Position numbers and translations under genes: made by a program. Positions 4,876 to 35,191 of a stretch of 47,461 nt of DNA are shown one piece after another. Location: positions 1 through 47,461 of the IMG/VR virus record IMGVR_UViG_3300017990_000024. One strand, 5' to 3'. Positions within the stretch are counted from its first letter, which is position 1; the number at the start of each line of letters is the position of its first letter. The notes under the pieces were generated by a model. It was given only the letters and a program-made list of their open reading frames with translations. It was not told where the DNA came from and ran no database searches. This stretch comes from a virus.

Positions 4876-5205
4876 TTACTCAACCTTTTCGGGCTCTGGC
4901 TCTGGCTCTGGCTCTGGCTCAACTACCTTCGCTTCTTCAATCACTTCAGCATTTTCAGCAAGAGCTTCCTCACCGACTACTTCTTTGATAGCGCCTTCTG
5001 TCGGAGTGTCTTTCAACACGATCTTTTCTTCCATAGTATCTCTACCTTCTAGTTCGATGACTGTATTCGTCTCAAGAAAATGACGAATTTCATAATCATC
5101 TTCATCTACAGCAACCCAATCGCCTTTCTTCACGACTGCTCCTGCTATCGTTGTCACTACTTCGTTTGGATATGAATCCCGTAACCTTACATTAATTTTT
5201 CCCAT
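4876..5205 (-). CDS. Small virion-block protein with Glu-Pro repeat tail
   Basis: 109 aa. The N-terminal ~45 residues (INVRLRDSYPNEVVTTIAGAVVKKGDWVAV) resemble a small beta barrel; then comes an acidic helical region and a C-terminal (Glu-Pro)x5 run. The repeat is encoded by a six-base unit repeated in the DNA at about 4890-4920. GGTGA is placed correctly before the ATG at 5205; a GTG three codons earlier is less likely. A similar Glu-Pro run occurs in the 81-aa gene at 8905. Confidence 0.65.
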   Translation of the reverse strand: MGKINVRLRDSYPNEVVTTIAGAVVKKGDWVAVDEDDYEIRHFLETNTVIELEGRDTMEEKIVLKDTPTEGAIKEVVGEEALAENAEVIEEAKVVEPEPEPEPEPEKVE

Positions 5206-5241
5206 TTTATTCACCTTCGCGGTTTATCATTCTTTCAAAAG

Positions 5242-6217: not shown

Positions 6218-7231
6218 TTATGCAGTTATGCTTGCGATTGCTTGCGGGTAGATGACTGCTAGTACGTAACTCATAAGAGCAACGATTTCACGGTCATATG
6301 GATCGCCTGGCAATGCACCCTCGAAGGTTTCAAGCTCGCTTTCTCTTACAAGCATTGCAGCCTTCTTACTGTCAATTACAAGTCCCTGTGCAGCCGTTAG
6401 GAATGGTGTTACCACGATATCCATCTGGTTGAACTTTAGAACAGGCATGTTCACTGTCACGTCGCCAGGTCTGGCGGTTGCGAAGTAGACATGTTCTTTC
6501 CAGTCAGTGCTCTTTGCAAGGATTCCCCATGCAGCTGGTGAGACAACAAGATGTGTTGCCAAGAAGCCGAATGGTGTTCCGTTTGCATAGACAGCGCCTT
6601 CGACAGATACTTGTGCGTCGATGACTTTGTCGTAAGTGATACCACCACCGGCTGATGTTGCAGCTCCTGCGGCAAGTCCATTTACGATGTCAGATGCAAG
6701 TTTCCTTGTAACTGCGTCAGCAGCGTTTTGTAGAATGAATCTTACGAAGTCATCCATACCACGCTTCATGATCTCCCATGTGATCTTCGTTCCTACTGCA
6801 ACTTTTCGTGGTGTTACGGTGATGTCGTCGACTCCTTCATCGAAGTAGCTAACTACTGCACCCTCTGCAACTTCCACTGCAACAGTTGGTTGAAGACGTG
6901 GGATTTTATAAGCGCCAAATCCGCCTTTGTCTTTTAGATCGTCGTTGATGTAGACAAGCTCAAGAATGTTCTTGATATTCTCTACGGCAGCACTATATAG
7001 TGTAGTGCTAAGCATGGTCGTGTATGCACCACTTGCAGTTGAGGTTGTGATGTCTTCTTTGAACTTGACACCATATCCTTCAGCAAGGCGGATTGCATTT
7101 CGCGCCCACGTTTCTGTTTTAGCTTTGCGCTGAATCCCTTCACACAGCTTCTTACCAACTTCTTCAGTTAGTGCAGTGCCGTGTTCGGAATACTTCATTT
7201 GCGAAAGCTTTTCTACTTTGAATTTTCTCAT
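6218..7231 (-). CDS. Major capsid protein, HK97 fold
   Basis: 337 aa, the usual size for this family. Features fitting HK97-fold capsids: a helical N-terminal arm (residues 1-60), an E-loop-like segment with IPRLQPTVAVEVAEGAVV near 110-130, a long spine helix region (WEIMKRGMDDFVRFILQNAADAVTRKL), and a C-terminal A/P-domain segment (FLATHLVVSPAAWGIL, MDIVVTPFLTAAQGLVID, REIVALMSYVLAVIYP). GGAGG is placed well before the ATG. Preceded by scaffold and protease genes in the standard order, which makes the call strong even though family identity is by eye. Confidence 0.88.
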   Translation of the reverse strand: MRKFKVEKLSQMKYSEHGTALTEEVGKKLCEGIQRKAKTETWARNAIRLAEGYGVKFKEDITTSTASGAYTTMLSTTLYSAAVENIKNILELVYINDDLKDKGGFGAYKIPRLQPTVAVEVAEGAVVSYFDEGVDDITVTPRKVAVGTKITWEIMKRGMDDFVRFILQNAADAVTRKLASDIVNGLAAGAATSAGGGITYDKVIDAQVSVEGAVYANGTPFGFLATHLVVSPAAWGILAKSTDWKEHVYFATARPGDVTVNMPVLKFNQMDIVVTPFLTAAQGLVIDSKKAAMLVRESELETFEGALPGDPYDREIVALMSYVLAVIYPQAIASITA

Positions 7232-7244
7232 GTTTGCTTTCCTC

Positions 7245-8108
7245 CTAACCCCGGATCAGATGCTTTGCAGCTTCACCGAACTTTGTGTGGATTCCGTTTT
7301 CAGCACTCTCCACAAATGCACTCCTTAGTATCGCACTTTCAGACTGCGGAGCGAGAGGCTGTTCTTCATCGCTTTCATCAAGTTCGTCTCCGAACTGTGA
7401 TTTGAATTTCTCCTCGAGTTCGTCGATCTGATTCTTAAGAGCTTCAACGACATCAACAACTTTGCCCATGTCATCTTCCATCTCTCGGAATCGTTCTGTA
7501 ATTACGGGTTCCTCTTCGTCTTGCTCAGTCAAAGGTTCTTCCTCTGCGCCATCTTGCTCTTTGTATCGAGCCTTCTCGCGTAGTCGTTTCCCATTACGAA
7601 CTCTCTCTTTGAGCTTACGCACTCGGCGTAGCCTTTCCATCAACTCTCCTTCCTCTTCTTCGAGTTCCTCAGCGAGTTCTTCCTCATCCATATTTTCGGA
7701 TTGGATTTCCTCTGTGTTCTGCGGTGTCTCGTCGCCTATGTTGTCTCCACCATCGGCTGGAATCGAGTTGTTACTTTTAGGATCAGTTTGAGTATCTACT
7801 TCGGCTTCATTTTCTTGCATCCGGGACTCCTCGTCTTCGCCTTCTTGCTCTTCGAGTTCTTCTTCGTCCTCTAAAGCCTCTTGTTGCTTGCCGTCCTGGA
7901 TCTCTCCGTGGTCCTGGCTTGCATCAGGAGTGAGCGGCGTAGTCGGGGTTCCGTCGGCACTACTTGAAGCAGTAGCAGAGACGTCCTGATCCGCTTCGTT
8001 TTCACGGTATCTCTTTTTTGCCATACTTTCTTCCTCCACCTTATGCATCCTCGAGAGCCGCTCGTGCTCTCGCAAGATTGTGATGAGTTGTTCTTTTGTC
8101 TTACTCAT
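7245..8108 (-). CDS. Capsid scaffolding protein
   Basis: 287 aa, very acidic and low in hydrophobic residues, with long Glu-rich runs, a basic helix (RLRRVRKLKERVRNGKRL) around residue 158-176, and a C-terminal coiled coil (VEALKNQIDELEEKFKSQF). Composition and its place between protease and major capsid protein match scaffolding proteins of HK97-type viruses, which line the procapsid and are removed by the protease. Overlaps the protease stop by ATGA. No enzyme motif. Confidence 0.8.
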   Translation of the reverse strand: MSKTKEQLITILREHERLSRMHKVEEESMAKKRYRENEADQDVSATASSSADGTPTTPLTPDASQDHGEIQDGKQQEALEDEEELEEQEGEDEESRMQENEAEVDTQTDPKSNNSIPADGGDNIGDETPQNTEEIQSENMDEEELAEELEEEEGELMERLRRVRKLKERVRNGKRLREKARYKEQDGAEEEPLTEQDEEEPVITERFREMEDDMGKVVDVVEALKNQIDELEEKFKSQFGDELDESDEEQPLAPQSESAILRSAFVESAENGIHTKFGEAAKHLIRG

Positions 8109-8908
8109 TGGGTCACCTCTCGCAAGATTCTTGCTACGTCATCTTCCCCAAGCGTCCGAATGAATGATTCGGCCATGATCTCAGAACTTACGTACTGAAG
8201 ATCCTCGAGCGAGCGGGAAAGCAGCTCTTCTACAATAACAGCTGCTGCCGATAGTTTAGCGTCTTCAATGCTAGGATATGCCTGTTTGAGTAATGGGAAT
8301 AGCTTTTCAGCTCCTTCACTGCGCAGATCACCTGGCATCAACGGTCCACCAATCGCGCCGTCTGCTGTGCTCGTTGTCGCATCATGACGAAGACTAAGCG
8401 CCTCCGCGAATGCTGCGGTTGTATCAAGAAATCCTGGAGCGGGAACAATTGACCCTTCAATGATGTCGCTTACATAAGCTTCAGTAAATGAGAGTCCTGA
8501 TTCTTGATTGAATCTCTCTTCAACTCTACCACCGATCAATTGTATTGAAACATGTCGAAGATCTCCTCTTTCGAGCTTTCTGATCATATCGCGTTCATGC
8601 GGATCAATATCTGCTTCGTAATGCCATCCAACTCCATCACAATATGAATTGATAAAGTGACCAACTGGTAGCGAAGTATCTTCGACTTTGTGATTGTACA
8701 TAACTGGACGTCCAATCAAATCCTTGTGTTTTTCACGCACACTTGCCTCATTATAGAGTACATTGTTTCGTGAGATTTTGTTAAATGGGAGCATAAGACC
8801 TTTGAGGATATATTTAGTCTTACCAGTATGCGGATCGATCTTCTCTGCGAACTGAAAAGTACCTTGTCCTGGTACCCACACTTCTTTCATTAGCTGGGCG
8901 GTCTTCAT
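8105..8908 (-). CDS. Prohead (capsid maturation) serine protease
   Basis: 267 aa. The herpesvirus/HK97/T4-type maturation protease signature is visible: LIGRPVMYNHKVEDTSLPVG contains His73, and GDLRHVSIQL contains the nucleophile Ser121; EGSIVPAPG follows near 151-159. The C-terminal ~100 residues are helical and may bind scaffold or be self-cleaved. It cuts scaffold and other inner head proteins before DNA packaging. It overlaps the upstream 81-aa gene and the scaffold by ATGA, so translation is coupled. Confidence 0.85.
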   Translation of the reverse strand: MKTAQLMKEVWVPGQGTFQFAEKIDPHTGKTKYILKGLMLPFNKISRNNVLYNEASVREKHKDLIGRPVMYNHKVEDTSLPVGHFINSYCDGVGWHYEADIDPHERDMIRKLERGDLRHVSIQLIGGRVEERFNQESGLSFTEAYVSDIIEGSIVPAPGFLDTTAAFAEALSLRHDATTSTADGAIGGPLMPGDLRSEGAEKLFPLLKQAYPSIEDAKLSAAAVIVEELLSRSLEDLQYVSSEIMAESFIRTLGEDDVARILREVTQ

Positions 8909-9150
8909 TTGTTATCGTTCTCTAGTTCGTCTATCCTGTCGAGCATTTTATCTTTAGTCCAGCTCATTGGAAACTCTTCGTCATATACATCAGCTGCATA
9001 TTCAACGAGTTCCGCCTTTGACATATCCTCTAGATAAAATTCTTCGTCCTCTACGTCTTCTGTGATTGGCTCTGGTTCTGGTTCTGGCTCAGAAACTTGC
9101 TCTCTTGCAAGCCATTTTCTCTGTCGACGTGTTAATTGTTCGTTTGCCAT
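8905..9150 (-). CDS. Small protein with Glu-Pro repeat and HeH/SAP-like tail
   Basis: 81 aa. A basic N-terminus (MANEQLTRRQRKWLA), a Glu-Pro run (residues 21-28), an acidic stretch, and a C-terminal MSKAELVEYAADVYDEEFPM...TKDKMLDRI helix-turn-helix resembling the HeH/Rho-N/SAP-type small domains found in viral head and tail genes. A TATA box lies about 24 bp upstream, so this is the promoter-proximal gene of the protease-scaffold-capsid message. Confidence 0.65.
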   Translation of the reverse strand: MANEQLTRRQRKWLAREQVSEPEPEPEPITEDVEDEEFYLEDMSKAELVEYAADVYDEEFPMSWTKDKMLDRIDELENDNK

Positions 9151-9186: not shown

Positions 9187-9378
9187 TCATGACTTGAACA
9201 TCTCCTCCATGATTGATATTTTTTCTCGCATGATAAGTTTTTGTCGAATTCTCTCTTTCTCAGCAGGCCATTTTCCAGTGATCTTCTTATGAATCACAGC
9301 GCAATACGCTTCTGGTGAATTCTTGTCAGAGTTCTTTGACATGCAGTCATCGAAATCTTTATAGTCTCCGAATGGCAT
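9187..9378 (-). CDS. Small viral protein with DFDDCM..PEAYCA motif
   Basis: 63 aa. The motif KDFDDCMSKNSDK followed by SPEAYCAVIHKKITGKWP is a recurrent short family in tailed-virus genomes, with two conserved Cys. Function unknown. Its ATG overlaps the previous stop (TAATG). It is followed by the promoter at 9174-9185, so it is probably the last gene of the upstream transcript. Confidence 0.65.
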   Translation of the reverse strand: MPFGDYKDFDDCMSKNSDKNSPEAYCAVIHKKITGKWPAEKERIRQKLIMREKISIMEEMFKS

Positions 9379-9848
9379 TAGTCCCAGCCTCCTTCGAGAT
9401 ACACAGGAATGCTTCGATACCCAAGATGCTTGAGAGCAGCAACCCTATGATTTCCTTCTTCAATCTTATTCGTGCGAACATTATATAACGGCACAGACCT
9501 AAGCTTTTTGCCGCTGTTGATCAAGTCAATTATTCCTTGAATCGATTTTCCAAATGAGCCCAGCACATTTCCAGCTCTTCTAGCTGCAAAGTTGATGTCA
9601 ATGAAAAATACTCCAAGAGTCGGATCTACTTGTTGTGCAGCAAATAGCTTACCGCTTGACTTATCAGAGGAGAGTGCTTTGAATACAGGACTCTTCCATT
9701 CAGCAGAAGTCAATCGTTCGTCTATAAGCTTCGCAGCAAAGTCTACATTCTTGATCGGAACCATTGCACTTGCATTCAATTTATGAATTAAAGCCTTTGC
9801 CTCTGCTACACTCTCATGAAGAAGTAGCAATTTCTCGGTGTATCTCAT
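9378..9848 (-). CDS. Tagged protein with ParB/sulfiredoxin-like domain
   Basis: 156 aa. Starts MRYTEKLLLLHESVAEAK, one of three consecutive genes opening with the same M(K/R)YTEKL motif. The C-terminal part has the ParB/Srx-type motif EGNHRVAALKHLGYRSIPVY (residues ~130-149), in which 'DGNHRxxAAxxLG..xVPV' forms the nucleotide/phosphate-binding pocket. Srx/ParB-like enzymes bind ATP or CTP or act as nucleases; activity here is not established. Start taken at 9848 because of the ATGA overlap with the previous stop and the shared motif. Confidence 0.7.
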   Translation of the reverse strand: MRYTEKLLLLHESVAEAKALIHKLNASAMVPIKNVDFAAKLIDERLTSAEWKSPVFKALSSDKSSGKLFAAQQVDPTLGVFFIDINFAARRAGNVLGSFGKSIQGIIDLINSGKKLRSVPLYNVRTNKIEEGNHRVAALKHLGYRSIPVYLEGGWD

Positions 9849-10459
9849 TTTTCGACGTATTTCAGTAGTAGTGTGTAGTACTTCGGGTTCTCTTCGAGAT
9901 GATCGATTGCAATGCGAGCAGCATCCATTGGATCTTTTGTGTGCTCGAACTCGATCGGAAGTCCCAAGTGGAATTCCTCCATAGGGAATCCTCCGAAATC
10001 GCCCTGAGGCTTCTCTTCGTTCCCGTATATGTCTTCTTTCAATTTGGTGAGCTTCTCTGTGTACTTGAATGATTCGACTTGACCTTTCTCCCACTTCCTG
10101 AACCAATTATATAGCTCCTGTGCTACGGAGCGTGAGATGTCGTATGAAACCATGAATTCTTTCACATCATATTCTCTACGGTCTTCAAGCAAGTCTTCCT
10201 TCTTGAACATCTTGATCAATGAAGTTGCCTGTGAAGACAACTCTCTAAACGATTCATTCAATTTTCTAGAACCAAACTCAGCCTTCATGATATCCATAAT
10301 CATCGTCTCCTTGTCAGATTTTGAATAAATCTTAAAGTTACGTTGAGCAATCTGATATAGTTCGTTTGGAGTTTTCTGCTTCAAAGCTTTATACCTAGAT
10401 TCTACTTCAGGTCTCCATGCTTCCTTATGTAGGGATTCTAATTTCTCTGTGTATTTCAT
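9845..10459 (-). CDS. Tagged protein, apparent fusion ending in DUF5661-like domain
   Basis: 204 aa. Begins MKYTEKLESLHKEAW; a second copy, FKYTEKLTKLKEDIYG, appears at residues 131-146. This looks like two tagged proteins joined: a helical part (1-130) and a C-terminal segment FHLGLPIEFEHTKDPMDA...IAIDHLEENPKYYTLL, which matches the DUF5661 pattern (EHT, IA.DHL.E.P.YY). Function unknown. The gene overlaps its neighbours at both ends. Confidence 0.7.
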   Translation of the reverse strand: MKYTEKLESLHKEAWRPEVESRYKALKQKTPNELYQIAQRNFKIYSKSDKETMIMDIMKAEFGSRKLNESFRELSSQATSLIKMFKKEDLLEDRREYDVKEFMVSYDISRSVAQELYNWFRKWEKGQVESFKYTEKLTKLKEDIYGNEEKPQGDFGGFPMEEFHLGLPIEFEHTKDPMDAARIAIDHLEENPKYYTLLLKYVEK

Positions 10460-10662
10460 TATGCGTTCCTCGCGAACATGTACAAGAACTCGAGCACTTC
10501 TGCACGTTCGAATCCTTCATCCATGAGTTCTTTCTTGATTCCTTTCGCTGCACGTTTGAATGCGGTCATGTCAGAAATCTTTGCTAGACCGCCCATACGG
10601 TCAATTGCATCTCGACTGAGAGCTTCAGTGTGTAGTGTGTTTAGCTTCTCTGTGTATCTCAT
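10459..10662 (-). CDS. Tagged small protein, 67 aa
   Basis: Begins MRYTEKLNTLHTEALS, the third copy of the shared N-terminal motif, then a helical basic region (AFKRAAKGIKKELMDEGF). GAGGTAATC upstream of the ATG. Its stop touches the next ATG (TAATG). It may be a short member of the same packaged-protein group. No other family recognised. Confidence 0.65.
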   Translation of the reverse strand: MRYTEKLNTLHTEALSRDAIDRMGGLAKISDMTAFKRAAKGIKKELMDEGFERAEVLEFLYMFARNA

Positions 10663-10666
10663 TTGA

Positions 10667-12373
10667 TTACCTCAAATTAAGAAGATCTTTCAAAGCCTTC
10701 CTATCTTCACCAACAGATCCTTTTGCTAGAGCGACTGAAACTTGCTCTCTAGGAAATGTGTCGTTAATGCGATCGATTGCTTTGACTGTTCCAGCTACAT
10801 TACCTGCTCTAGCAAGTACTTGAACTTTCTTCCAATCAGCAATGTCTTTTCTCTTCATTGCTTGATAGTCTGGATCATCCTTCTCATCACGGATCTCTTT
10901 TTCACCAGACTTGACTAAAGCATCAATTCGTGAAGCTTGCTTCTTGAGTAGAGCGGGCATGTTTACTGCTTCTCGTTGTGAACCGTAAGTCTTATCTTTA
11001 TACCCATCTCGATCTTGAGCAAAATCTTTACCTGCAGCTTGCTCTGTTTCAGGATCTGGATCGACCTCGCCACCTAAGACGCGTTCAGAAAGTTTTCTGA
11101 TTCTTTCTTGAAGCTCGGCGTAGTCTGCTCCAGCAGCATTGTTAGCGAGTTTTGGATATCCAAGCTTCTTGTAAATAGCATTCTGTTCATCAGTACCAAG
11201 AGCATTCCAATGTTGACCGTACATCTTCCAAGCCATCTCATTTACTTCGTCGTCGCTTGGACCATTTGAAACTGATTCATTATTCTCAGGTGCTGGGATA
11301 GTATCTTCAAGTTCTTCACTCGTCTCGTCGCCGAGCTCGATTTGTTCGCCAAGTTGCATCTTATCAGAAATTCTCAGAGCTTTCTTGAAATCGCTATCTT
11401 TATTGAAAGCAAATGATCGTGTACCACGTGTGTACTCAATCTTTGCTTTGCTCAGACGATCTTCAAACTCATCCGCTTCCTTATCAGAAGGCATTATAAT
11501 TGAGTTGAATTCTTTGAATGATTCTTTCTTGATCTCCTTTGGATCCATTTCGTCAGTTGAGAATTTTGTACCGTCCCATTTGACGATCGGTTTACCACCA
11601 CGTACGTCAACGACAGTTCCTGAGATCTTGCCCCATGACTTCGTACGTCCTTGGCCAGAAGTTGAAACTTTATCGCCTTTCTTGAATGATTCAGAATAAT
11701 CACCCATTACTAGATTGCGAATTTCAAAATCAGATGGATCACCTGGTTCAAACATCTTCTTGTTCCCGATCACGACTTTATTACTACCTTTCTGCACAAT
11801 CAGTGCGTATCCAGCATTTGTGGATACAGAACGTGTTTTGAAACCTGCTGATTTCAAAGGTTTATCCATATCGAATAAACCAGAAGCAGATTTCATGATA
11901 TCGATAACCTTATGCTTATCTGCAGTACTCATCGCTTCACTTCTCTTTGAATCTTTGTTAGAAATAAAAGAACGATATGCTCTGATCGCTGATGCAGCAA
12001 TCTCATAAGCCTGATCCAGTGTCAATCCTTCTTCGTCTTCCTGTAGCATGTACGCAATCTCTTGAATACGTGGTTCATCGAATCCTTTCTTGACTCGATT
12101 CAGAATGTGTTTGTGTGCCTTCTTAACGAGATCAGCTTTGTCATCACCGTCAAGAACACTTTCTTTGTACAATTGTTTTATTCGTTGACTAGTGTTCATA
12201 TGTTCCCTCGAATGTTTTTTGACGAAAGCGTCGAGCCGTCTCTTGACCTCGGATGCACCCATGCCGAACAGTTGACCAACGATCGCTATATCAATCGTTT
12301 CAAGACCTCCAGAAGCAAGTGCTTTCTTAAAATACTCTTCTGGAGAGGAAAACTGTTCTTTGCGCTTTGTCAT
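10667..12373 (-). CDS. Large unknown protein, candidate internal virion protein
   Basis: 568 aa, hydrophilic, no catalytic motif recognised. Helical N-terminal third (EEYFKKALASGG, a basic HTH-like ASEVKRRLDAFVKKHS, and MNTSQRIKQLYKESVLDG, which weakly echoes the tag of the next genes), a beta segment around GDKVSTSGQGRTKSWGKISGTVVDVRGGKPIVKWDG resembling a small SH3/KOW-like barrel, then an acidic middle and a helical C-terminus. The start is the ATG at 12373 because the TATA box lies within the longer reading, 26 bp upstream. It leads the operon holding the tagged genes, so it may be packaged with them; this is inference. Confidence 0.6.
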   Translation of the reverse strand: MTKRKEQFSSPEEYFKKALASGGLETIDIAIVGQLFGMGASEVKRRLDAFVKKHSREHMNTSQRIKQLYKESVLDGDDKADLVKKAHKHILNRVKKGFDEPRIQEIAYMLQEDEEGLTLDQAYEIAASAIRAYRSFISNKDSKRSEAMSTADKHKVIDIMKSASGLFDMDKPLKSAGFKTRSVSTNAGYALIVQKGSNKVVIGNKKMFEPGDPSDFEIRNLVMGDYSESFKKGDKVSTSGQGRTKSWGKISGTVVDVRGGKPIVKWDGTKFSTDEMDPKEIKKESFKEFNSIIMPSDKEADEFEDRLSKAKIEYTRGTRSFAFNKDSDFKKALRISDKMQLGEQIELGDETSEELEDTIPAPENNESVSNGPSDDEVNEMAWKMYGQHWNALGTDEQNAIYKKLGYPKLANNAAGADYAELQERIRKLSERVLGGEVDPDPETEQAAGKDFAQDRDGYKDKTYGSQREAVNMPALLKKQASRIDALVKSGEKEIRDEKDDPDYQAMKRKDIADWKKVQVLARAGNVAGTVKAIDRINDTFPREQVSVALAKGSVGEDRKALKDLLNLR

Positions 12374-12398
12374 ATCAAGTTGTTTAGAGACATCCGTA

Positions 12399-12410
12399 TA
12401 TTTAAAAATA
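12399..12410 (-). promoter_or_regulatory. TATA box upstream of the 568-aa gene
   Basis: Exact TATTTTTAAATA on the minus strand, 26 bp from the ATG at 12373. It lies inside what would be the N-terminus of a longer reading frame, which is why the shorter start is preferred. Suggests a leaderless transcript for the tagged-protein operon. Confidence 0.7.
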
Positions 12411-12416
12411 TACATT

Positions 12417-12650
12417 TCACTCCTTGCGTTTAACACGCTTGTAAAAGATCGCTCTCGGACTGCTCCCAGCCGGCTTCACGCCTTGCCTTTCGACAATAAA
12501 CTTCGCTTTCTTCATCCAGCGAATGAGATGCCAAGACTCAGAATTCGAGAGACCAAACTCTTCAGCAATCTGTTGTCTACTCTTTGATCGTTCTAAGAAC
12601 TCGAGTACTTCATTGATCGAATACTTACTTTTCTTCTCCAACAGCAGCAC
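12417..12650 (-). CDS. Small winged-helix DNA-binding protein
   Basis: 77 aa. YSINEVLEFLERSKSRQQIAEEFGLSNSESWHLIRWMKKAKFIVERQG reads as a helix-turn-helix with a following wing, typical of small archaeal wHTH regulators. No ATG in frame near the N-terminus: GTG at 12650 or TTG at 12641 must serve as start. It overlaps the upstream coiled-coil gene by 26 nt. It lies just before the promoter of the tagged-protein operon and could regulate it. Confidence 0.65.
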   Translation of the reverse strand: MLLLEKKSKYSINEVLEFLERSKSRQQIAEEFGLSNSESWHLIRWMKKAKFIVERQGVKPAGSSPRAIFYKRVKRKE

Positions 12651-13302: not shown

Positions 13303-15444
13303 TTACTGTGGATCTAGCATTGCAGTACAACGACAATTGATTGCTACCCCTGGGAAACTATCGTCCGTGAGTGGAGCTTTCCCCTGCAGAGCGTCTGCGA
13401 TCTTATACGACTTCATATGTCTCTTTGCATGAAGTGGACGTACTCTGTTATCGTTCATCGTCACCCAGATGAACTTCTCGAATCCTTGCTCTTGCCATTT
13501 CAAGAGACGTAGTAAGTTCGTTGACTTTCCTATCTCAGTCCGAATGATCCTTTGCACTTCCCAGTCTTGCGGATTCTCTTTGCGTTTATACTTGTCAATG
13601 ACTTCTTTCACTTGCTTCTTGATCTCAGCGTGTGACAGTCCTCGTACAACTCCATCCAGAATCAGCCTGCGAACATCTTGTACTTTCTTCTTGTTGTATT
13701 GTTTAAGTTGTGCGTCAAAGTTCTTCTGTAGCATTGCTGCTTTATCCATGAGTGCTTTTGATAGCTTCTTGTCGACCTTCTTGTCAACCTTCGTGTCTAG
13801 AGCTCCGGTTCCTTCATGAACGTTATCAAGAACTTTTGCAAATACATCAGTCGCAATACTAGAAACCTTCTTATCAAATCCTTGCATCGTCTTCTCAAGC
13901 GAATCAACTGATTTTGAAGAGGCAAATGCTTCTGACGTCTTTCGTTTCTTCTTGTCAAATTGCTTAAAGAACGAATCAACTGAATCAACAAGTGCTGAGT
14001 CTACTTGCTCAAATGCTTCATCAGCGAGATCATCTTCGGCGCTTCGTAGTTCGGGTGTTGCGCCCTCCCGAAAACCTTCTGGGGATTGAAGTAGTTGAGG
14101 TGGTTCAGCGTCTGGAATGCTTACACCTGGAAACGCGTCCATATTACCATACGTCTGTTGGACGTCTTTAGCAAATTGATTTCCAGAGTCGGATGGTAGT
14201 GCTTCTAGTCCAACGAGCTCTCTGTATTCGTTGACTGTGATGATGTTTCTATCAAACAGATCTCCAGCGAATTGTAGTTTCTCGCTCTTACTATCGAAAT
14301 CGATCTCTCCGAACTTGAACGTCGCATCCTTTGCTAGCCAAGTATATTCTTTTCTGAGCTCATCAATGATTGCTTTATCTAAGAATGCAACGAGCTCTTC
14401 TCGCATTGACTCAAGTCTATATTCAAAGACTACTCTGACTTCTTCAGATGTAGCTCGATTGATGTCAGAGTTCCATGGAGTCAAGTAATTCGGTACAAGA
14501 CCTGATGTGACATCTCTTCGAAGCCAATCAACAGGAGCGCTCATGTCATCGTACTCTCCAACATTAGATAGCGAGTTGATCTCGTGTGGTTTGTTGAGAA
14601 TGATGTGCTCGCTATCCCGTTTTGCATCGAAATCACTTCGGAGCGTCTCTATATCTTCGACTGTTGCCGGATTTTCTGCATCTCCTACACTTATGATCTT
14701 AGCGTTGAGAGCACGATAGCGAGCAATTATGGACCAGTTCTTGACGATCTCCTTAATAATGTCTGTGTCGTCTATAACTGACATGAGGAAAGAACGGCCG
14801 TAGATCATATCTCGGCTCCACCCCCACTTAAAGTGGGATATCTTCGCTTTGTCAATCGGTATTCCATACACCGATCTGCGGAACACTACGCTACTAGCGA
14901 GTACGTAGTTAATGAACCAAAACTTTGGATGCATTTGCGTCATCTCTCCGAAGAGATTTGAGAATGGATATGTTTTTAGTTCAGTTGGTACTTCATATAT
15001 CCACCATTTATCGTGTTCATCTGATGCAAGATTTCTAAAGACTCTTGCTGAGTCTGTGATTGTGAATACGTTGTCGAGAACGAGTGAGCCATTTGGAGTC
15101 TTGGCAAATGTATTCTCAAAATATGCGTTGCCTGTAACAAGAGCTGAGATCACGAAATTTCGAATCTCTTGATTTCCTCTATCTCTTTGCTCAAGCCATT
15201 TGTTGAGAAAGTCTTCGGTCTTCTTGTCGCTTGACTCAATAGAAATATCGTTGCCTACGACAAAGAGCGCTAGTTGGTCGATGCCACTGTTGACTTGTGG
15301 TCTTGTAAGATACGCTTGTGTTGCAAGCTCCATCTCTTCATGTGGTGTGCGTGCTACGTTTTCATCGAAGAGTCCAGTGCCGAACCGTAATGCACCTAGC
15401 TTTGTAATGAATTGCTTAGCCGTAAAAAGTTCAGTAAATTTCAT
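13303..15444 (-). CDS. Portal protein fused to MuF-type head protein
   Basis: 713 aa. Residues ~1-430 form an HK97/SPP1-type portal (LATQAYLTRPQVNSGI, FVISALVTGNAYFE, SHFKWGWSRDMIYGRSFL, NDINRATSEEVRVVFEYRL-like region, stem/crown helices). After an acidic linker and coiled coil, residues ~570-713 carry the phage MuF/SPP1 gp7 domain: VQRIIRTEIGKSTNLLRL, WVTMNDNRVRPLHAKRH and the Cys-containing end VAINCRCTAM. Portals form the ring through which DNA enters; MuF domains lie at the head interior and are minor head proteins. Fusion of the two is known in other tailed viruses. GGAGG precedes the ATG. Confidence 0.9.
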   Translation of the reverse strand: MKFTELFTAKQFITKLGALRFGTGLFDENVARTPHEEMELATQAYLTRPQVNSGIDQLALFVVGNDISIESSDKKTEDFLNKWLEQRDRGNQEIRNFVISALVTGNAYFENTFAKTPNGSLVLDNVFTITDSARVFRNLASDEHDKWWIYEVPTELKTYPFSNLFGEMTQMHPKFWFINYVLASSVVFRRSVYGIPIDKAKISHFKWGWSRDMIYGRSFLMSVIDDTDIIKEIVKNWSIIARYRALNAKIISVGDAENPATVEDIETLRSDFDAKRDSEHIILNKPHEINSLSNVGEYDDMSAPVDWLRRDVTSGLVPNYLTPWNSDINRATSEEVRVVFEYRLESMREELVAFLDKAIIDELRKEYTWLAKDATFKFGEIDFDSKSEKLQFAGDLFDRNIITVNEYRELVGLEALPSDSGNQFAKDVQQTYGNMDAFPGVSIPDAEPPQLLQSPEGFREGATPELRSAEDDLADEAFEQVDSALVDSVDSFFKQFDKKKRKTSEAFASSKSVDSLEKTMQGFDKKVSSIATDVFAKVLDNVHEGTGALDTKVDKKVDKKLSKALMDKAAMLQKNFDAQLKQYNKKKVQDVRRLILDGVVRGLSHAEIKKQVKEVIDKYKRKENPQDWEVQRIIRTEIGKSTNLLRLLKWQEQGFEKFIWVTMNDNRVRPLHAKRHMKSYKIADALQGKAPLTDDSFPGVAINCRCTAMLDPQ

Positions 15445-31561: not shown

Positions 31562-31791
31562 TGCTCAATGACGATAAATTGGAAGACAGAATAGACCCGA
31601 CAACATGTTCACACAAACCTGGAAGCGTATATCGGTGGGAAGATCCGGTGATGGCTAAAGAGATTGCAATGCAGCTCGGAATTCCAGGTGAAGAAATTTA
31701 CGGAGCTCACTGTAGAGTTTGCCGCACAGACTATGTGTTGGTAGTCAAGGATGGCGGACTACATCCAGCTTCGGAGATCAAGAATGACTGA
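31558..31791 (+). CDS. Small Cys-containing protein, 77 aa
   Basis: TTCSHKPGSVYRWEDPVM and AHCRVCRTDYVLVVKDGG give a C-H...CxxC zinc site. It overlaps its neighbours at both ends. The ribosome site for PolB (GGAGATC) lies within its last codons. Confidence 0.6.
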   Translation: MMLNDDKLEDRIDPTTCSHKPGSVYRWEDPVMAKEIAMQLGIPGEEIYGAHCRVCRTDYVLVVKDGGLHPASEIKND

Positions 31792-34700
31792 ACATAGTAT
31801 TGTCCGTGGATACGAAGAGAAAGAAGGCATAGTCCTATCTCTCTATGACGGAGAGAAGATTGAACGAAAGTTTCTGAGGTTTCAAAATTACTTCTATGTG
31901 CGAAGCGATGAGTTCGAGATACATAAAGAATCGTTTGAATATCAATGGAGTAAGATCACTGATCAAGTTCATATGAACGCTAAGAATTGTGATGCCAACG
32001 GTCCACGTGTTGTTGAATACACGAAGATCTTATTGCACAACAATTGGATGCGAACGAAGATACGATCATGGTTCGAAGATCGTAGCATCAAGACGTTTGA
32101 GGCTGACGTCAAAGCAACTAAGAGATTTCTTATTGACAGACACGAAGTGGGACTGAACTCACATCTACAGAACGTACTCTTCTTTGACATTGAGACAGAT
32201 GACCGCAAGCCACTTAGGAAAGATGATCGCGGTAGCGTGATTGCTCAAGGACCAGTGCTCAGCTTCGTTGGTGTCAATGATAAAGACGAATTGTTCATGT
32301 TCGTGAATGAAGGTGATGATCCAGAAGACGGGGAACGCGCTCTGTTAGTGAAGATCTCAGAAGCTATCTCTAAGCATTGCATCGTCTCAGGCTGGAACTC
32401 AAGTAATTTTGATTGTCCATATCTTAAACAGAGAATGGCACTGCACGGTGTAGACTGCTCATGGGAATACTTGAATGAGCTAGACTACCTCGATCTGTTT
32501 CGAAAGAACTATCGTCAGAGTCTTCCTAGCTACAAGTTAAACAATGTAGCAAAGAGAATTATCGGAGAAGAGAAGCTTGATCAAGCAAAAGGAAATGGCG
32601 CAGTGTATCGTGCATGGAAAGACAACCGCGAACACTTCCTTGCGTACAACAAGCAAGACGTAGATCTGATTGTGAAGATGGATAAGTCTCTGCAGTTCAT
32701 ATCGCTGCATAAAGCCATTGCTGAGCAAGCTCACTGTTACATATATGAGACCATGCAAAACTCTCTTAGCATGGACGTCATGCTCCTTATACGGTACAAG
32801 AAAGCTGGTATCATCATGCCAAGCAAACCAACTCAAGTAGAAGTACAGATCAATGAATCTAAAGGTCGCATCGGCGGCGGGTATACAACATGCTTCGAAC
32901 CTGGAGTGCATGAACAAGTAGAAGTGTTTGATTTCAAGTGCGTTGATGAAAACGCTATCGTAACAACAGCTAAAGGTTTTATTAAAGCGAAAGATGTGCA
33001 AATCGGAGATGAAGTATTAACCGATGCAAGAATGTGTAAGGTGTCAAATAAAGTATTCACTACACATAAATCATATGTCAAGATAAAAGTAGATACAGGA
33101 GATGAGCTTTGTGTTTCTCTTGACCATAGACTACCGACGGCCGATGGTAAATTAAAACAAGGTAGAGAGTTGCAGAAAGGAGATAATCTTATTGTTAATG
33201 TAAGATGTTTACCCGAGAAGAATGGCGACGGGTTTAAACAATTGTGTTTTTTGGCTGGTGCTTGGTTTGCTGAAGGAGGTGTCGTGTCTGGTAGAGCCGA
33301 CAATCCGTATATATACAGAGTCACTTTTTCTTTGCATAAGAAAGAGCAAGAGTTTGCAAAGAAAATTAGTTCCATCATTAACGAAAACACGGATGCTAAG
33401 ATTAAGACTGTCTATAGAAAAAATACTGATGGTATGAAACTAGTCGTTGACTCAAAAGAATTCTTCAAGTTCTTTACAACATTCATGGAAAAGACTTTAC
33501 CATCATCTTTAATGAATGAAGAAAACGCTCGGGCGTTCTTACAAGCATTTTTTGAAGGAGATGGCTCGTATAATATCTGTAGGGAAACTGTTGAATTAAA
33601 TCAATGTCACAAAAAGAAAGAACGTTTAATGCTTGCTCATTATTTGCTTCGCGCTCTCGGAATCCAATCTCGTACTAATCAATATACAAGCACAAATCAA
33701 ACTGAAAAATCATTTAAGACTTGGAGATTAGAAGTTAGGGATGTGGAAGGATTCGAAAAGCAAGCTGGCTTTTTCTTGAAAGAAAGAACGTTTGAGTATG
33801 AACGTAATTTGCGAAAGAAAGGGAAAATAGTTTCGGTTGAACATGTACATGAGAGGATGAAGATGGTTGACCTTACAATTGAGGGGCATCCATATTTTAT
33901 TGTCAATAATATCCTCTCTCATAATTCGTTCTATCCGAGCACGATCGAGACTTGGAACTTATCACCAGAGACGTTACTTGCACAGGAGCAGGAAGGTTGT
34001 ATCATTACTCCTGATGATACGAACGATGACACAGGTGGTGAACGACATCACCCACACAGATATTACTTACGTGAGAAAGGCATAGTACCACAGACTGTAC
34101 GTGAGCTTGTAGATGAACGTGATAAAACGAAGTATGCTATGAAGGAGTTCATATCTTCTGACCCAGACAAGTACCGTAAGATGTACCTGCACCAATATGC
34201 ACTGAAGGTGTTGAGCAACTCTATCTATGGAATTCTATCATTCTCCCGTGCCAGATACTATTCATTTGAACTTGGAGATAGCGTTACGACTTGCTGTCGT
34301 GCTCTAATCAAGTCTCTAAACAAATACATTGAAGCGAACAGCGGAGTAGTCATCGGAGGAGATACAGATTCTTCATTCGTTAAGTTTCCACCTGGCTCAG
34401 ACATGAAGATAGTTGATAAGATGATCGCTGACTACTTAGATGAGTGGATGGTGCAGTGGAAGACGGATGGACACTGCCAAGTGTTTGAGCATGAGAAGAC
34501 TGTAGCGCCAATGCTCTTCTTGAAGAAGAAGAACTACGCGTATCTCTGTGAAGCAGAGAAGAGTGAAAAGAATCCGCATGGCCTGACTGTGAAAGGTCTT
34601 GCTGGTAAGAAGAGCGATGCAAATCCTCTAGCTGGTAAGCTTCAGAAAGAATACGTACTCGATGTGCTTCTGAACCGCTTCGATAAACAGAAGTGGCAAG

Positions 34701-35191
34701 AGTTCTTGGATAAAGAATACGCTCGATGTATCGCCGGTGAACTAGAATTGAAAGAGATCCTTATGAGCAAAGCCGTCTCTAAGAATCCAAGTGACTACGG
34801 TGGCCCAGTCATTGATAAGAAGACTCGACAGCCGAAGATCAAGAAAGACGGTTCAATACAGATAAGACCGATTCCAGCTCACGTGAAGATCGCACTTCGT
34901 ATGCTTGACCAAGGTGAGCTCGTTGATATTGGTACAAAGATCCGCTATGTTGTAGTAGATACGAAACCGATCAACGGTCTATCTCAATCTGAATATGAAG
35001 CGCACTCTGCAGCTGGCGGTACGTATGATGCAAAATACTATTGGGAAAAGATCATCACACCACTGTTCTCTGTTATGCTTAGAGCAAATGATGAGCGGTA
35101 CATGATTGATTATTCAACGCTTCATGTTCCCAAGAAGTTAATTGCAAAGATCGCGAAAGAGCAAGATACAGATGAAGAGGAGGATGATTAA
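31784..35191 (+). CDS. polB: Family B DNA polymerase with intein
   Basis: 1135 aa before splicing, about 806 after. Exonuclease motifs: FFDIETDD (Asp135, Glu137), GWNSSNFDCPYL (Asp210), YNKQDVDLI (Asp292). Polymerase motifs: A, DFK|SFYPS, interrupted by the intein; B, LKVLSNSIYGI; C, IGGDTDSSFV. KKKNYAYL and KGLAGKKSD follow in the thumb region. It can both polymerise and proofread. Start at 31784, with GGAGATC 5 nt before it. It is the replicative polymerase of the module with MCM-like helicase and primase. Confidence 0.93.
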   Translation: MTEHSIVRGYEEKEGIVLSLYDGEKIERKFLRFQNYFYVRSDEFEIHKESFEYQWSKITDQVHMNAKNCDANGPRVVEYTKILLHNNWMRTKIRSWFEDRSIKTFEADVKATKRFLIDRHEVGLNSHLQNVLFFDIETDDRKPLRKDDRGSVIAQGPVLSFVGVNDKDELFMFVNEGDDPEDGERALLVKISEAISKHCIVSGWNSSNFDCPYLKQRMALHGVDCSWEYLNELDYLDLFRKNYRQSLPSYKLNNVAKRIIGEEKLDQAKGNGAVYRAWKDNREHFLAYNKQDVDLIVKMDKSLQFISLHKAIAEQAHCYIYETMQNSLSMDVMLLIRYKKAGIIMPSKPTQVEVQINESKGRIGGGYTTCFEPGVHEQVEVFDFKCVDENAIVTTAKGFIKAKDVQIGDEVLTDARMCKVSNKVFTTHKSYVKIKVDTGDELCVSLDHRLPTADGKLKQGRELQKGDNLIVNVRCLPEKNGDGFKQLCFLAGAWFAEGGVVSGRADNPYIYRVTFSLHKKEQEFAKKISSIINENTDAKIKTVYRKNTDGMKLVVDSKEFFKFFTTFMEKTLPSSLMNEENARAFLQAFFEGDGSYNICRETVELNQCHKKKERLMLAHYLLRALGIQSRTNQYTSTNQTEKSFKTWRLEVRDVEGFEKQAGFFLKERTFEYERNLRKKGKIVSVEHVHERMKMVDLTIEGHPYFIVNNILSHNSFYPSTIETWNLSPETLLAQEQEGCIITPDDTNDDTGGERHHPHRYYLREKGIVPQTVRELVDERDKTKYAMKEFISSDPDKYRKMYLHQYALKVLSNSIYGILSFSRARYYSFELGDSVTTCCRALIKSLNKYIEANSGVVIGGDTDSSFVKFPPGSDMKIVDKMIADYLDEWMVQWKTDGHCQVFEHEKTVAPMLFLKKKNYAYLCEAEKSEKNPHGLTVKGLAGKKSDANPLAGKLQKEYVLDVLLNRFDKQKWQEFLDKEYARCIAGELELKEILMSKAVSKNPSDYGGPVIDKKTRQPKIKKDGSIQIRPIPAHVKIALRMLDQGELVDIGTKIRYVVVDTKPINGLSQSEYEAHSAAGGTYDAKYYWEKIITPLFSVMLRANDERYMIDYSTLHVPKKLIAKIAKEQDTDEEEDD
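32939..33925 (+). other. Intein with LAGLIDADG homing endonuclease in PolB
   Basis: 329 codons, residues 386-714. First residue Cys (CVDENAIVTTAKGFIKAKDV), last residues HisAsn (NNILSHN), followed by Ser, the set needed for protein splicing. Block-B His lies in VSLDHRLPT. Two LAGLIDADG-like motifs: CFLAGAWFAEGG and LQAFFEGDGSYN, so a DOD-type homing endonuclease is present and looks intact. The insertion is in polymerase motif A, an active-site position used by archaeal PolB inteins. The stretch is visibly more AT-rich than the flanking polymerase DNA, which suggests recent arrival. Confidence 0.92.

Follow-up and report, generated by a model that had tools for sequence, protein, structure and literature searches.

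A short propeptide-like tag recurs on unrelated small domains between the portal and prohead protease genes of a virus and its relatives

Three overlapping genes in a virus genome encode proteins that open with the same short sequence, M[KR]YTEKLxxLHxE, ahead of unrelated remainders, and the question raised by this locus is what such a shared tag may do beside the genes of the viral head. The genome is the 47,461-base virus record IMGVR_UViG_3300017990_000024, the whole of which is referred to here as the window. On its minus strand the order is portal, three small genes, then genes for proteins of 589, 67, 204, 156, 63 and 81 aa, followed downstream of the 81-aa gene by an S78-type protease, a scaffold-like gene and the capsid gene. 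The features concerned are the following:

13303..15444, minus strand: portal fused to a C-terminal Mu F domain (domain match)
10667..12436, minus strand: 589-aa accessory gene, first in the tagged series
10459..10662, minus strand: 67-aa tagged gene, with no recognised domain in the domain scan
9845..10459, minus strand: multidomain tagged gene for a 204-aa protein in which DUF5661 spans residues 158-200 (window 9860-9988)
9378..9848, minus strand: 156-aa tagged gene, weak ddrB-ParB-like C-terminus EGNHRVAALKHLG
9187..9378, minus strand: 63-aa MPFGxYKDFxDC gene (phrog_6439)
8105..8908, minus strand: prohead protease (Peptidase_S78; E=1.5e-5)
7245..8108, minus strand: putative scaffold, acidic and coiled-coil-like, placed between the protease and capsid genes
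6218..7231, minus strand: major capsid protein (MCP)

The 67-, 204- and 156-aa genes are linked by stop/start codon overlaps. They had been predicted to lie near head genes, and are located between the portal and the S78-type prohead protease, which matched Pfam PF04586 with 25.7 bits (cut-off 21) and adjoins the scaffold and capsid genes. A FAEA motif just past the protease domain (8399-8410), kept in all four viruses discussed below, is a possible self-cleavage site. Among the domain labels proposed at the outset, DUF5661 in the 204-aa protein is solid (PF18905, 37.2 bits, cut-off 27, E=3.9e-9), whereas the ParB/Srx label of the 156-aa protein is weak, its ddrB-ParB match (E=0.061) falling below the cut-off and being the sole match to a known polyvalent-protein domain. 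A PDB sequence search with the 156-aa protein gave no match, and AlphaFold models of the 156-aa and 204-aa proteins were of low confidence (pLDDT 44-46) and lend no support.

We defined the long form of the tag as [YFLIV]xx[KR][LIV]xx[LFM]x(1-2)E; a short form, ESF[KR]E, was defined in the relative G005. Copies and candidate copies in the window are:

10621..10662, minus strand: tag copy 1, MRYTEKLNTLHTEA, N-terminus of the 67-aa protein
10418..10459, minus strand: tag copy 2, MKYTEKLESLHKEA, N-terminus of the 204-aa protein
9807..9848, minus strand: tag copy 3, MRYTEKLLLLHESV, N-terminus of the 156-aa protein
10031..10078, minus strand: tag copy 4, VESFKYTEKLTKLKED, internal in the 204-aa protein, directly before DUF5661
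10238..10258, minus strand: NESFREL, short form, 204-aa protein, before the DRREYDV domain
12158..12196, minus strand: divergent candidate copy NTSQRIKQLYKES, 589-aa protein
11678..11695, minus strand: SESFKK, candidate short form, 589-aa protein
11510..11530, minus strand: KKESFKE, candidate short form, 589-aa protein
11078..11116, minus strand: divergent candidate copy ELQERIRKLSERV, 589-aa protein
9202-9231, minus strand: MREKISIMEE, weak tag-like C-terminus of the 63-aa protein

Pattern and PSSM scans bear out the three tagged starts and, within the 204-aa protein, the fourth copy. The pattern MxYTEK occurs at exactly three places in the record, all at these gene starts (control 0), and the window tags scored 30-34 bits, where shuffled sequence gave a genome-wide 95% maximum of ~17, a result that mainly shows the absence of rivals, since the PSSM was trained on the same four copies. 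The original prediction was right that an internal copy precedes DUF5661 but gave its sequence incorrectly, the true VESFKYTEKLTKLKED being a hybrid of two tag forms. Its four copies are real but incomplete as a count, weaker ones being present in the 589-aa and 63-aa genes together with short ESF[KR] forms. Taken singly, each divergent or short copy is a weak candidate, and the case for them comes from the relatives; tag-like tails also end relatives of the 63-aa protein (LKAKLSVLSE in locus L007, YKNKLNSLYKE in locus L014).

Codons differ between window copies at 2-5 of 6-10 shared residues, so it is as protein that the tag is conserved. BLASTP alignments among the three tagged proteins were confined to the tag, the 67/204 alignment extending as far as residue 43 but owing 10 of 14 identities to the tag, which agrees with the proposal of one tag on unrelated domains. 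An amphipathic helix had also been proposed; hydrophobic moments exceeded those of shuffled sequences for most copies, but rarely significantly.

Searches of IMG/VR returned near-identical copies of the window virus, at 99.9% across the loci compared, and three relatives, all with an MCP: G001 (IMGVR 3300027054_000004; MCP 82%), G002 (IMGVR 3300033150_001344; MCP 66%) and G005 (IMGVR 3300031952_000015; portal 37%). The exact N-terminal form of the tag was found nowhere in IMG/VR outside the near-identical copies. All three relatives encode tagged proteins in the corresponding position, between the portal and the S78-type prohead protease, so that a search suggested with the original prediction, namely whether the tag marks varied proteins near protease genes in other viruses, gave a positive result.

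In G001, proteins of 670 and 467 aa bear at least five tags, including SYSEKVKKMHESA, KLHERIKKLHEAA, KLHGRIKDLHEHV, SIRSRINTLAEGI and SVHKRVEKLLEAK. The window-trained PSSM ranked SYSEKVKKMHESA and KLHERIKKLHEAA first and second in the genome (19.7 and 14.1 bits), the former above and the latter below the 16.1 bits of the shuffled 95% maximum. All six matches to [KR][ILV]xx[LM]xE[ASG] in the G001 proteome fall in these two accessory proteins, for each of which 0.04 were expected, and the N-terminal region of the 589-aa window protein is 43% identical to the 670-aa protein. A further tag suspected at residue 360 of the latter was dropped, as it overlaps DUF7417. The best match in G002, YKNKLNSLYKE (16.3 bits; shuffled 95% maximum 15.1), is the end of its orthologue of the 63-aa protein. 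The long form was enriched in accessory genes over the rest of the genome in the window and G001 (p=1e-5) and in G005 (p=7e-4), with patterns chosen after looking and with the originally reported four copies included in the window test; in G002, which has little accessory sequence, enrichment was not significant and only weak traces were seen.

The repetition is most pronounced in G005, where proteins of 1288 and ~650 aa lie between portal and protease. The 1288-aa protein contains 21 matches to the pattern E[ST][FL][KRST]E, where 0.06 would be expected; the copies are mostly 37-82 residues apart and cut it into ~20 short segments that show no evident mutual similarity, except for a few repeated types. 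Genome-wide, 26 of 28 occurrences fall in the two accessory genes and a 27th on the protease before DUF5661. Between domains in the relatives, the tag is repeated up to about 22 times. Long forms in G005 (ESFRSRLESFKE, ESFRCRLESLKEA) match the spacing of the window tag, and the short form as defined in G005 is found in the window in accessory genes only (2 vs 0). Eight of 13 ESFKE copies are identical in DNA, while 75-nt contexts share only 38% identity; recent copying or recombination may contribute to these copies. Scanned singly for domains, ten of the segments gave sub-threshold matches only, such as zinc-ribbon-like and Arm-DNA-binding-like ones.

The tag ends resemble sites in the capsid propeptide. 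In the G001 proteome [KR]LxEAxG[VI] occurs three times (0.00 expected): RLAEAHGV ends the presumed MCP propeptide, and KLTEALGV and KLHEAAGI stand at two tags. Four LxE[ASG]-like sites lie within the first 52 residues of the G001 MCP. In G005, where 0.55 LxESF sites would be expected, there are five; the MCP propeptide has two of them and the 1288-aa protein the other three. These probabilities are descriptive, as the propeptide-match patterns were found by inspection; the motif patterns were refined after the data had been seen, and the MCP maturation site was itself inferred from an alignment. Two candidate propeptide sites were noted in the window MCP:

7136-7147, minus strand: LCEG, candidate MCP propeptide site
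7076-7087, minus strand: LAEG, candidate MCP propeptide site

The match is weaker in the window than in G001 and G005, because two window tags end in LHTE or LHKE, with leucine at P4 and not P3, and the MCP sites read LxEG, not LxEA. Residues 13-25 of the window MCP, KYSEHGTALTEEV, gave the best non-tag PSSM score in the window, within the range of shuffled maxima. Cleavage after Glu is known for prohead proteases of T4, phiKZ and SPN3US (PMC9026906, PMC10052503), the SPN3US site being AxE with Ser favoured next (PMC10052503), and since known prohead proteases cut in this way, it is reasonable to read the tag ends as candidate protease sites.

Domains and tags are shuffled among these genes. 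Tag copy 4, VESFKYTEKLTKLKED, aligns with TESFKEALSTLK, which precedes DUF5661 in the G005 protease; the tag-DUF5661 pair has moved, being part of the 204-aa gene, separate from the protease, in the window, and forming the C-terminus of the protease, after TESFKEA, in G005. The G001 protease also bears DUF5661. A DRREYDV domain is common to the 204-aa window protein and the 670-aa protein of G001 (L007), and an RPPKAGW domain, found within a small gene in G002, closes the 1288-aa protein of G005 as its final segment. In a further virus, locus L034 (6001-8538) encodes a protease/scaffold protein to which related small domains are joined, an 845-aa fusion of MPFGxYKDF, a ChaB-like domain, an S78 protease and further small domains; the kinds of module in this fusion match separate genes of the window. 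The 670-aa protein of G001 combines DUF7417 (E=3.4e-22) with a domain like phage G gp597, both of which occur as stand-alone genes away from head genes in other phages. In phage Diane, a DUF7417 gene and an Ocr-like antirestriction gene overlap by a few bases.

DUF5661 also turns up elsewhere. A Vibrio phage has it joined to a DUF2213 protein that occupies the head-protease position, and in the huge phages LR756501 (L023 1572-3762) and LR756500 (L024 2905-4066) DUF5661 proteins stand among neighbours with T4-CTS-like starts. Few such starts were found by a pattern scan of the 50 kb around one of these DUF5661 proteins, and a literature search for DUF5661 found no papers. The starts in the two huge phages (MEFVKTYLEFINEQ, MEYVKLFEEFVND, MIKKFHTYIKEN) resemble the T4 CTS by eye only. 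A DeoC-family aldolase with the start MVKNFDKFVREA is among these proteins, and VLKNYKSFLKEAAE is internal, after DUF5661, in L023.

Judging from the sequences, we lean towards the tag being a capsid pro-sequence, that is, a targeting sequence with a cleavage site on virion cargo, which in the relatives would be carried in tag-punctuated polyproteins. The arrangement suggests that the tag serves as punctuation between small domains, with the virus loading a cocktail of small proteins into the head and cutting it there. Each copy would precede a small domain and end in a Glu-directed site like those of the MCP propeptide. During assembly the tag would help to bring its domain into the core of the prohead and would then be cut at its end by the S78-type protease; the freed domain would stay inside the head, probably exiting with the DNA and acting early in infection. 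The cargo would be spread over several short overlapping genes in the window virus and gathered into one or two long proteins in the relatives. The fuller form of this reading, a capsid polyprotein of ~20 small effector-like domains, flanked by tags, packed in the prohead, cut by the protease and injected with the DNA, with the window virus as a partly split version, is possible, though somewhat doubtful.

Repeated possible cleavage sites at this same genomic place would yield small pieces equally well if the tagged proteins were interior scaffold or core proteins of a disposable assembly core, degraded by the protease at the tags before DNA packaging, and not cargo. T4 core proteins are degraded by gp21, those to which the tagged proteins may be likened being gp22, gp67 and gp68 (PMC9958956). 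We consider a disposable core unlikely, as the segments are unrelated small domains, some with stand-alone homologues away from head genes, of which a core would need none, and a separate scaffold-like gene already adjoins. The presence of tag-like KYSEHGTALTEEV in the capsid propeptide itself, and a hydrophobic spacing partly compatible with a helix, would also suit an uncleaved docking motif, in which a short helix binds the scaffold or the capsid interior and the likeness to the propeptide reflects shared docking. The recurrent Glu followed by Ala, Ser or Gly at tag ends, and the variants common to tags and propeptide in G001 and G005, make such a motif quite improbable.

That domains clearly shuffle between genes, and that many G005 copies have the same DNA spelling, fits a modular linker spreading by domain shuffling or recombination in a fast-rearranging region, with no virion function. 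Against this stand window copies that share residues and often not codons, the 75-nt contexts in G005 that are only 38% identical, and the same motif logic in divergent viruses, resembling the capsid propeptide; we regard a mere linker as highly improbable. Ordinary tandem paralogues diverged except at the N-terminus, as neighbouring genes with the same start might be, were ruled out with next to no residual probability, as the original prediction had also held, since BLASTP similarity ends at the tag, internal copies precede unrelated domains, and tag and DUF5661 together have moved to the protease.

A capsid pro-sequence on cargo has partial precedents. In T4, a short N-terminal sequence is carried by the unrelated proteins IPI-III and Alt, with gp21 cutting after Glu and the targeting and processing residues lying within about 10 residues (PMC9026906, PMC5694885). 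The window has a similarly short shared N-terminal sequence on proteins with unrelated remainders; the sequence itself differs, the protease here matches Pfam Peptidase_S78, and the likeness is in kind only. The comparison with the T4 targeting sequence, made in the original prediction, is partly supported: the tag ends resemble capsid propeptide sites, more weakly in the window than in G001 and G005, but the tag is not simply N-terminal, being internal in the 204- and 589-aa window proteins and mostly so in G001 and G005.

According to Iyer et al. 2017 (PMC5512222), the polyvalent proteins of phages and conjugative elements join disparate domains, including ddrB-ParB and assemblin-like peptidases, in one polypeptide that is predicted to be packaged and injected, a peptidase sometimes releasing the domains. 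The 670-aa protein of G001 and the 1288-aa protein of G005 likewise combine several unrelated domains per polypeptide in a portal-terminase phage. Here, in contrast, the domains are mostly very small and of no recognised family, a tag recurs at their boundaries, no such boundary tag being described in the passages of PMC5512222 consulted, and the protease is encoded on its own. In phage P1, the initial 30 residues of DarB send a reporter into the head, and the Dar proteins are packaged antirestriction proteins that, unlike the window proteins, have no shared N-terminal consensus (PMC9024508). The ejection proteins gp53 and gp54 of SPN3US have conserved N-terminal propeptides with several AxE motifs and Ser favoured at P1' (PMC10052503, PMC5694885); these phiKZ-like propeptides differ from the present tag in being N-terminal and >100 residues long, with no tag between every domain. 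A search of the open-licence literature found no description of a tag repeated between domains.

Head-internal proteins of tailed viruses are hard to find from sequence, and a virus-specific propeptide-like tag, if the favoured reading is true, would offer a simple sequence rule for spotting them. It would also imply polyprotein-style cargo processing by a prohead protease, tie the unexplained domain DUF5661 to the head interior, and make the tag usable for loading proteins into such capsids.

Searches of a phage collection with the capsid, protease, 156-aa, G001 467-aa and G005 1288-aa proteins gave no match, and the single match from a search with the 589-aa protein was not significant. Matches to the terminase came from both archaeal and bacterial viruses, those listed at only 22-26%; no tag was seen by eye in one of these, Methanofastidiosa virus vir521. 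Two scans of genome contigs revealed no provirus and no host, and the archaeal host assumed in the original prediction was not established. Two pattern matches in the second scan were judged to be chance, as were two extra contigs from a general capsid pattern.

Several minor observations accompany these results. PEPEPEPEP runs occur in two small structural-region proteins of the window (8905-9150 and 4876-5214, minus strand), the former having a weak C-terminal match to the prohead protease inhibitor family phrog_8608 (E=0.0095). The G005 portal (L060 3268-5934, minus strand) has a Hint/intein-like insert in the last Mu F residues, CFPAGTKILTRSG...VHNC, then RCTYVAYE; with matches to PF13403 (2.1e-7) and PF14623 (1.3e-6) and a weak one to the intein-splicing model, it is probably a mini-intein. 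A family B DNA polymerase with a LAGLIDADG intein (PF14890, PF14528) is encoded at window 31751-35191 on the plus strand, and the match of the G001 polymerase, which seems to be without an intein, splits around the window insert.
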